From assembly GCA_026184775.1 (NCBI GenBank), contig JANCYW010000010.1:124001-188000 (forward strand): 64,000 nucleotides of DNA, in the 5' to 3' direction. Positions 3,661 to 47,838 of this stretch are shown piece by piece. Numbering within the stretch: the stretch's first letter is position 1; every line of letters begins with the position of its first letter. Position numbers and translations under genes: made by a program. The stretch is from Cyanidium caldarium (Eukaryota > Rhodophyta > Bangiophyceae > Cyanidiales > Cyanidiaceae). Below the pieces are notes generated by a model that was not told the DNA's origin, ran no database searches, and saw nothing but the letters and a program-made list of their open reading frames with translations.

Positions 3661-4411
3661 ATGGCCAAGAACAAGGGTAAGGGCGGCAAGAACCGCCGAC
3701 GGGGAAAGAATGAGAATGACGCTATGCGGCGGGAGGTGGACGTTAAGGAGGAGGGGCAAGGTAAGTGCACGCGATCGAGGGCGCTGCCTCAGGTAGCAAG
3801 GGCAACACAGAGTCGTGGCTTTCGTCGGGGCGCGAGTGATGAAGCGCCAAGTGCGTGCAACAACTTGCTGATGCGTGCAAGGCGCGCCGTGCGGAAAGGT
3901 ATTTTCTCGAAGAATTCCTCGTTTCTGACACCCAGACGACGACAGCCCGCCAGTGCCACGACTCAGCAACAGGCAACTAACCCATCGGGAATGGCTGGCG
4001 ACGCGCAAGGCGACCGGCCACCGTTCTACGTCTGCAGAATATGCACAGGTGCTGCGAATGCTGGGCAACGGACGCTGCGAGTTGTATTGTTTCGACGGCA
4101 TCAGGCGGCTGGGACATATCCGCGGCAAGATGCGGAAAAAGGTGTGGATCAACGTCGGTGATGTGGTGCTGGTGGGCTTGCGCGATTACCAGGACGACAA
4201 GTGCGACATCATCCTCAAGTACACGGCGGACGAGGCGCGTACCCTGCAGCGCAAAGGCGAGCTGCCCGACAACATCGTACTGAACGAGGGCACGGGCGAC
4301 GGCGGCGGTGCCGATGTGGAGTTCGATATCGAGATCGGAGAGGCCGAAGACGGCCTCGGAAAGCAGCCGAACCGAAGCGACATGCCCGAGTTGGACATCG
4401 ACGACATATGA
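3661..4411 (+). CDS. EIF1AX: translation initiation factor eIF1A (two exons: 3661-3760 and 4038-4411)
   Basis: eIF1A binds the ribosomal A site and works with eIF1 in scanning and start-codon choice. Exon 1 encodes [19 protein letters not shown] and ends with VDVKEEGQ plus one base. Exon 2 resumes at [20 protein letters not shown] and carries the OB-fold signature [20 protein letters not shown], then DEARTL and the acidic tail ending ELDIDDI. The spliced protein is 157 residues, normal for the family. The splice follows consensus: GTAAGT at 3761, AG at 4036-4037, and a likely branch site ACTAAC at 3976-3981. Neither exon alone gives a complete factor, so splicing is required. The intron carries a box C/D snoRNA candidate. 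This is the only spliceosomal intron I could recognise in the window. Confidence 0.96.
3761..4037 (+). other. spliceosomal intron of eIF1A
   Basis: 277 bases. The donor is GTAAGT, the acceptor CTGCAG, and ACTAAC at 3976-3981 matches the extended branch-point consensus used in intron-poor unicellular eukaryotes. It is phase 1 (after the first base of the Glu codon) and contains stop codons in the reading frame. Confidence 0.92.
3823..3938 (+). ncRNA. intronic box C/D snoRNA candidate targeting two 18S rRNA sites (snR57-like)
   Basis: Box C GTGATGA is at 3836-3842, box D' CTGA at 3868-3871 and box D CTGA at 3925-3928. Flanks can pair: CGTC 3823-3826 with GACG 3935-3938, and GGG 3827-3829 with CCC 3931-3933, with a bulged A. 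The guide before box D (3912-3923) is complementary to AACGAGGAATTC, a near-universal stretch of helix-rich 3' 18S rRNA. The box D+5 rule points to the G after AAC, by my count the G methylated in yeast by snR57 (Gm1572). The guide before D' (3856-3866) is complementary to AAGTTGTTGCA, also conserved 18S, pointing to the first U after AAG. The rRNA sequences are from memory. The C' box is not clear, and the gap between stem and box C is larger than usual. Confidence 0.75.
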
Positions 4412-42534: not shown

Positions 42535-42631
42535 GGCGCGCATCAGAAATATGCTTGTCTATTGTGTGCTCATCACCGATAACTCCTCAGGGTGAGCTGA
42601 GTATAAACAGCGCTCATCATGTGCAACCGCC
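42535..42631 (-). ncRNA. SNORD27: box C/D snoRNA, U27/snR74-like, predicted to guide 18S rRNA methylation at A27/A28
   Basis: Read on the minus strand: box C ATGATGA (42614-42620), D' CTGA (42587-42590), C' GTGATGA (42570-42576) and D CTGA (42543-42546), all perfect matches. The ends pair: GGCG (42628-42631) with CGCC (42535-42538) and GCA (42622-42624) with TGC (42540-42542). The guide before box D is complementary over 12 bases to ATATGCTTGTCT, near the 5' end of 18S rRNA. The fifth base upstream of D faces the A in CAT-A-TGC, which is human Am27 and yeast Am28, the sites of U27 (SNORD27) and snR74. The D' guide target was not identified. Independent gene or 3' UTR origin is unknown. Confidence 0.9.
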
Positions 42632-47662: not shown

Positions 47663-47758
47663 GGTGGTATAGCTCAGTTGGTTTAGAGCGTGCGGCTGTT
47701 ACGCGCGTGAGCGCATACGGACACCGCAAGGTCGAGAGTTCAAGCCTCTCTACCACCG
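47663..47758 (+). tRNA. tRNA-Asn (GUU) with a 21-base intron
   Basis: All arms pair: acceptor GGTGGTA (47663-47669) with TACCACC (47751-47757), D stem GCTC/GAGC, anticodon stem TGCGG (47691-47695) with CCGCA (47724-47728), and T stem GAGAG/CTCTC around TTCAAGC. Removing 47702-47722 gives the loop CTGTTAA with anticodon GTT. The intron therefore sits at the canonical 37/38 position. The discriminator base is G, as for tRNA-Asn. A T5 run at 47767-47771 shortly downstream should terminate Pol III. Confidence 0.95.
47702..47722 (+). other. tRNA-Asn intron (position 37/38)
   Basis: 21 bases, starting CGCGCGTGAGCGC, just after A37. It can fold back on itself (GCGCG with CGC-rich part) next to the anticodon stem, as expected for a bulge-helix-bulge or endonuclease-cut intron. 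Confidence 0.85.
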
Positions 47759-47838
47759 CACCGGGCTTTTTGCCCCAGGATGCGACGGGAGGGTCGCCAG
47801 CGCAAGCCTCTCTGCCACCGCACCGGACTTTTTACCCA
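47741..47838 (+). repeat. tandem copy of the tRNA-Asn 3' end plus terminator
   Basis: The segment 47741-47776 (from the T loop through acceptor strand, CCA-like tail and T run) recurs with three base differences at 47803-47838, offset 62 bases. The second copy lacks the 5' half of the tRNA, so it cannot be a functional tRNA. It is a duplicated 3' tail with its own T5 run. Confidence 0.85.

Follow-up and report, generated by a model that had tools for sequence, protein, structure and literature searches.

We have analysed a 64 kb stretch of the genome of Cyanidium caldarium (contig 10, positions 124001-188000), referred to here as the window, in which the gene for eIF1A is interrupted by a single intron. 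The genome assembly comprises 8,787,356 bases in 20 contigs, and the G+C content of the window is 65.2%. The published description of strain 063 E5 gives 8.79 Mb in 20 contigs, a GC content of 65.7% and 44 introns in 41 genes (PMC13353863); in another account the intron count of this strain is 44 in the table and 46 in the text (PMC9812998). The eIF1A coding sequence lies on the forward strand and consists of exon 1 (3661..3760), placed by translation and alignment, and exon 2 (4038..4411), placed by alignment and by its match to the Pfam eIF-1a domain. The intervening 277-nt intron (3761..4037, phase 1) has a GTAAGT 5' splice site, the branch region CAACTAAC at 3974-3981 and a CAG 3' end. After splicing the gene encodes a protein of 157 amino acids, which matches Pfam eIF-1a and for which C. 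merolae provided the best match in a protein search. In the alignment of the spliced product with the eIF1A proteins of C. merolae (75%), Galdieria yellowstonensis and Pyropia the exon junction is free of gaps, which bears out the original prediction of a single intron. The GTAAGTG and ACTAACC signals of this intron recur in other introns of the C. caldarium genome, and the sole genomic match to the intron sequence as a whole is the intron itself. The frame of exon 1 runs without a stop through the whole intron (window 3661-4161), so that translation without splicing could yield a frame-shifted variant of 166 amino acids. Between its splice signals the intron is no more stable than shuffled sequence (z 0.27).

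Judged by its anatomy, the eIF1A intron holds a genuine double-guide box C/D snoRNA gene, which lies on the sense strand and wholly inside this spliceosomal intron of a protein gene. Box C (GTGATGA, an exact RUGAUGA) is found at 3836-3842, box D' (CTGA) at 3868-3871 and box D (CTGA) at 3925-3928; all three boxes had been predicted from the sequence and are where they were said to be, with C near the 5' end and D near the 3' end. A candidate box C' (GTGCGGA, 3889..3895), chosen by eye, is weak and agrees with RUGAUGA in 5/7 positions. Folding suggests a probable extent of 3822..3942 for the snoRNA, including a possible external stem of 6 bp (3822-3827/3937-3942). The stem adjoining the C and D boxes is imperfect. 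The possible external stem is not significant, since 530 of 5000 shuffled flanks form one of equal length, and the ends of the snoRNA are accordingly approximate. About 50 nt separate box D from the branch A.

The guides were compared with a working copy of the yeast 18S rRNA (1800 nt), which may differ from the 18S of C. caldarium; this reference agrees with 18 of 18 Nm sites on a working list of yeast sites. Pattern and DNA searches of the C. caldarium genome gave no 18S, a viral-contig scan with a conserved 18S pattern gave none either, and the rDNA unit reached through its 5.8S reads N at the expected place of the 18S. Numbers and guide names of yeast sites follow the working list except where a paper is cited, and human sites were excluded from the evidence. 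The D guide (3912..3923, guide positions 2-13) pairs with this yeast 18S over 12 bp and the D' guide (3856..3866, guide positions 2-12) over 11 bp, both with no mismatch and no G-U pair, and these counts are the same as those originally given. By the D+5 rule the D guide points to G1572 and the D' guide to U608 in yeast numbering. Gm1572 of yeast 18S is listed with snR57 (PMC5199042), and the original assignment of the D guide to the snR57 site was right. On these matches the D guide has a yeast-like site, and neither list consulted offers a counterpart for the D' site: U608 is absent from our working list of yeast sites, and its Arabidopsis equivalent, about position 612 by offset, is absent from the Arabidopsis table of PMC8053127. 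The original prediction was also correct in equating the D' site with no known site, as far as these yeast and Arabidopsis lists extend.

The probability of obtaining such an arrangement by chance was assessed with dinucleotide shuffles of the eIF1A intron, in which a C box together with a D guide of at least 10 bp was counted. When 18S and 25S were both used as targets, at least one guide was found in 0 of 60,000 shuffles in the first run and in 6 of 120,000 in the second (6 of 180,000 together), and two guides were found in none of the 180,000. Against 18S alone, one guide was obtained in 2 and two guides in 0 of 20,000 shuffles. Shuffled versions of the window (40 shuffles) gave 0.075, 0.0 and 0.025 matches to 18S per 64 kb at thresholds of at least 9, 10 and 11 bp, respectively, and the strict test returned no C/D RNA in 200 kb of other sequence from the same genome, where shuffling predicts 0.4 at 9 bp. 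Anatomy and statistics together strongly support the double-guide box C/D snoRNA that had been proposed. No Rfam family matches the intron at threshold; the best score was for SNORD82 (15 bits, E 4.7), from which we infer no kinship with that family.

When the window was scanned with 18S and 25S, the eIF1A locus was found together with one further C/D RNA. This second double-guide snoRNA is located on the reverse strand at 42543..42620, separate from the eIF1A locus and with no intron signal. Its boxes are C (ATGATGA, 42620-42614), D' (CTGA, 42590-42587), a perfect C' (GTGATGA, 42576-42570) and D (CTGA, 42546-42543). The D guide pairs over 12 bp and is directed to 18S A28, which we take to be the yeast snR74 (U27) site; the D' guide, with 10 Watson-Crick pairs and one G-U, is directed to 25S A2946, presumably the yeast snR71 (U29) site. 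Rfam matches to SNORD27 (E 0.017) and snR71 (E 0.89) fall below threshold. There is no GTRWGY site within 500 nt upstream, so this snoRNA looks like a gene of its own. The guides to 25S A2946 and 18S A28, which belong to separate RNAs in yeast and human, are here united in one RNA. In the Arabidopsis table A28 is given with U27 and A2947 with U29 (PMC8053127). The window also contains an apparently intron-containing tRNA-Asn(GTT) of 97 nt (47663-47759).

The whole genome was then searched for C/D RNAs with the pattern TGATGA-gap-CTGA-gap-CTGA, followed by guide scoring. This pattern occurs in 29 places, as against 6 for the reversed pattern. All of these places, 27 outside the window and 2 inside it, were scored for guides, and a place was accepted with a score of at least 11, or of at least 9 at a listed yeast site; the rule was set after the scores had been seen, and location was not used. 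Six of the 29 were accepted as C/D RNAs. Among the 23 that were dropped the top scores are 10.5 (L045) and 10.0 (L049), neither of them at a yeast site on our list. The accepted RNAs include the one in the eIF1A intron (18S G1572 and U608) and the second RNA of the window (25S A2946 and 18S A28; 42543..42620, minus strand). A third, C3, is directed to 25S G2240, not a listed yeast site, by 12 pairs and one G-U. C4 is directed to 25S A1133, which we take to be the snR61 site, and has an Rfam match to snR61 below threshold (E 0.73). C6 carries guides to 25S C2959, presumably the snR73 site, and to 18S C1215. The weakest of those accepted, C12 (L055, score 9.0), is directed to 25S U2729, which is on our list of yeast sites, and has a partial Rfam match to SNORD41 (E 2.5). 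By offset, the 18S C1215 target of C6 is Arabidopsis C1219, the site of SnoR166 (PMC8053127).

Three of these six RNAs are intronic: that of eIF1A, C3, which lies in an intron of a gene with a Cns1/TTC4 Wheel domain (TTC4/CNS1-like), and C6, which lies in an ETF-beta intron. The three introns share the signals GTAAGTGCA and ACTAACC. Since introns make up at most 0.18% of the genome, the probability that random placement would put three of six in introns is about 1e-7. None of the other three RNAs has a GTAAGT within 500 nt upstream; looser GT-type sites are found upstream of two of them, where a weak intron is possible.

Candidate introns were identified throughout the genome with the pattern GTAAGT-gap-ACTAAC, the spacing of 40-342 nt being divided into five classes. 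The number of matches per class was 10, 2, 7, 10 and 2 (31 in total), and that for the reversed pattern was 7, 11, 11, 15 and 14 (58 in total). Because these counts show no enrichment over the controls, each match was judged singly by its spliced frames and domains. One match was dropped because it takes in two short introns in the gene for an ABC transporter, which left 20 long candidates, with at least 100 nt between the 5' site and the branch, and ten short ones (50-88 nt). A Pfam domain crosses the junction in 11 of the 20 long candidates, with the 3' end chosen by eye; the other nine are less certain. The genes of the former group are those for eIF1A and TTC4/CNS1-like (by few residues only), ETF-beta, a RuvX-like protein, histone deacetylase, ribosomal L29, a class I tRNA synthetase, a DEAD helicase, HisG, a WD40 protein and chaperonin Cpn60/TCP-1. 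L063, L064 and L068 give no clear reading frame after splicing and are doubtful as introns. Measured from 5' site to branch, the candidates apparently form two groups, one at 50-88 nt and the other at about 180-335 nt; two doubtful candidates (117 and 154 nt) lie outside them. GTAAGTG and ACTAACC are the signals in most candidate introns.

RNA genes may be present in several of the long introns. A guide of at least 10 Watson-Crick pairs, accompanied by a D or D' box and an upstream C-like box, was found in 6 of the 18 long introns tested (eIF1A, L052, L054, L065, L068 and L071), against a shuffle background with a mean of 0.07 and a maximum of 2 in 300 rounds. The guide in L065, whose D' box is written ATGA, is directed to 18S G1428, presumably the snR56 site, and that in L068 to 18S G1268, which is not a listed yeast site. 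L071 (G000 C12:216805-217048), situated between GTAAGT and ACTAAC signals, has a guide to 18S C414, which we take to be the U14 site, as well as 7 nt that match the other target region of U14, its second, and an Rfam match to SNORD14 below threshold (E 0.03). The RNA predicted in L071 is thus U14-like; U14 is essential in yeast. In the WD40 gene, the intron L069 displays 13 Watson-Crick pairs and one G-U at 25S G908, presumably the snR60 site, with a C box matching in 6/7 positions; the score for this intron tolerates G-U and is without a shuffle background. With L069 included, a guided D or D' box is found in 7 of the 20 long introns, one of them U14-like. A perfect C box is present on the sense strand in 8 of the 20 and on the antisense strand in none, with 0.58 expected from 200 kb of genome. 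The C box is perfect in L058, L060 and L064, which have no convincing guide. In L056, L059, L061, L062, L080 and L081 neither a perfect C box nor a guide was found, and none of these passed the H/ACA tests.

Two other long introns, L067 (HisG) and L070 (Cpn60/TCP-1), look H/ACA-like and are possible sources of H/ACA RNAs. Each has two hairpins with an H box and an ACA and is better than 40 of 40 shuffles; random genome segments matched L067 in 0 and L070 in 2 of 500 cases. In a stricter first test L067 passed, L068 passed weakly and L070 failed, and in a relaxed test all three passed. L068 was discounted as an H/ACA candidate (-50.8), as values down to -50 occur in 22 of 500 random segments. 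L066 is strongly folded (z -2.83) and failed the H/ACA test.

The explanation that best fits these observations, and one that we hold with high confidence, is that the eIF1A intron carries a two-guide C/D snoRNA gene whose product is processed from the intron lariat and guides methylation of 18S rRNA. Transcription of the eIF1A pre-mRNA would co-produce the snoRNA, and the intron would then be spliced out. After debranching and exonuclease trimming, the snoRNA would be protected by the core C/D proteins, and fibrillarin would then methylate 18S at G1572, specified by the D guide, and probably also at U608, specified by the D' guide. The intron, its boxes, the pairing of its guides with yeast 18S, the statistics and the like arrangement in other introns of this genome are observed; expression, lariat processing, RNP assembly and both methylations are inferred.

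Three other explanations were considered. The intron might be an ordinary spliced intron in which letters resembling the boxes, and complementarity to a conserved 18S stretch, have arisen by accident, and the lack of any Rfam match above threshold would suit such an origin; the shuffle tests, the second snoRNA of the window and the genome surveys nevertheless make it very improbable. A less drastic alternative is that the C/D snoRNA is genuine but that only its D guide (G1572) works, in which case the D' match would be due to chance or would serve as a minor stabilising pairing. The degenerate C' box points in this direction, as does the absence of U608 from the yeast list and of its equivalent from the Arabidopsis table. 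However, 11 uninterrupted pairs starting at guide position 2 beside a perfect D' box are rare by chance, and both guides of the second C/D RNA in the window fall on listed yeast sites; we regard a single working guide as rather unlikely.

It is also conceivable, though we think it improbable, that the intron harbours a real snoRNA and yet persists for unrelated reasons, through slow intron loss, chance or effects on eIF1A expression. The ten candidate introns of 50-88 nt are too short to contain such an RNA and yet persist, three of the accepted C/D RNAs have no intron signal, and, as the eIF1A intron is open in frame, retained transcripts could encode an altered protein. Against this reading stands the strong enrichment of guides and C boxes in the long introns, where the C boxes are on the sense strand only.

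These observations also bear on the original suggestion, which stands in part, that the intron has been kept for the sake of a needed RNA inside it. In its favour, three of the six accepted C/D RNAs are intronic and several other long introns contain guides; against it, short introns persist, three C/D RNAs have no intron signal and some long introns gave no RNA that we could recognise. The suggestion is supported for part of the long introns; it is plausible and now has several of them behind it instead of one. With less certainty, RNA cargo may be one reason why the eIF1A intron and several other long introns survive in an almost intronless genome. The short introns and the three C/D RNAs without an intron signal indicate that cargo is not the sole reason for intron persistence, and the latter RNAs also indicate that introns are not the sole source of snoRNAs. 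The Cyanidiales have lost nearly all their introns and much of the spliceosome. We propose tentatively, at somewhat less than even odds, that a large share of the long introns surviving in this group are snoRNA hosts, for C/D RNAs (including a U14-like RNA) and H/ACA RNAs, and that making RNAs for the modification and processing of the ribosome would be a main reason that splicing has been kept at all. If true, this would explain why most intron-containing genes are common to several genera. Such sharing among three genera has been reported, together with the suggestion of essential intron roles, in a paper that nowhere uses the word snoRNA in its main text (PMC13353863, 2026). C. merolae has been reported to be without U1 snRNA (PMC8831791, PMC6461891). 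Among the matches listed in our literature search, which covered titles and the beginnings of abstracts of freely accessible papers, there was no paper on snoRNAs in cyanidialean introns. Why the last introns of intron-poor genomes are kept is an old open question, for which guide RNAs in several introns provide a concrete cause that can be tested; C. merolae, which is genetically tractable, belongs to this group of algae.

Among known systems, the closest parallel is with yeast snR57, which targets the same 18S nucleotide as the D guide of the eIF1A-intron snoRNA by the D+5 rule. The algal RNA differs from snR57 in its second guide (U608), in its location in an eIF1A intron and in having no Rfam match at threshold. 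It would do the job of snR57 and may, but need not, descend from it; no covariance model of a known snoRNA family matches the eIF1A intron at gathering score. Fungal snR57 is part of a snR57-snR55-snR61 cluster, which is intronic in some lineages (PMC3596301). Arabidopsis 18S is methylated at A1579 (SnoR8) and U615 (SnoR13), according to the table of PMC8053127. The SnoR8 site is in the same 18S stretch as the target of the D guide, but by offset the methylated A adjoins the equivalent of G1572 and is not the G itself. Similarly, the D' guide pairs with the stretch that holds the SnoR13 site, which corresponds by offset to yeast U611, three nucleotides 3' of U608. In its position inside a host intron the eIF1A-intron snoRNA is like the intron-encoded C/D snoRNAs of vertebrates and yeast. 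Unlike the hosts of those snoRNAs, the eIF1A gene belongs to a genome with only about 44 introns (PMC13353863).
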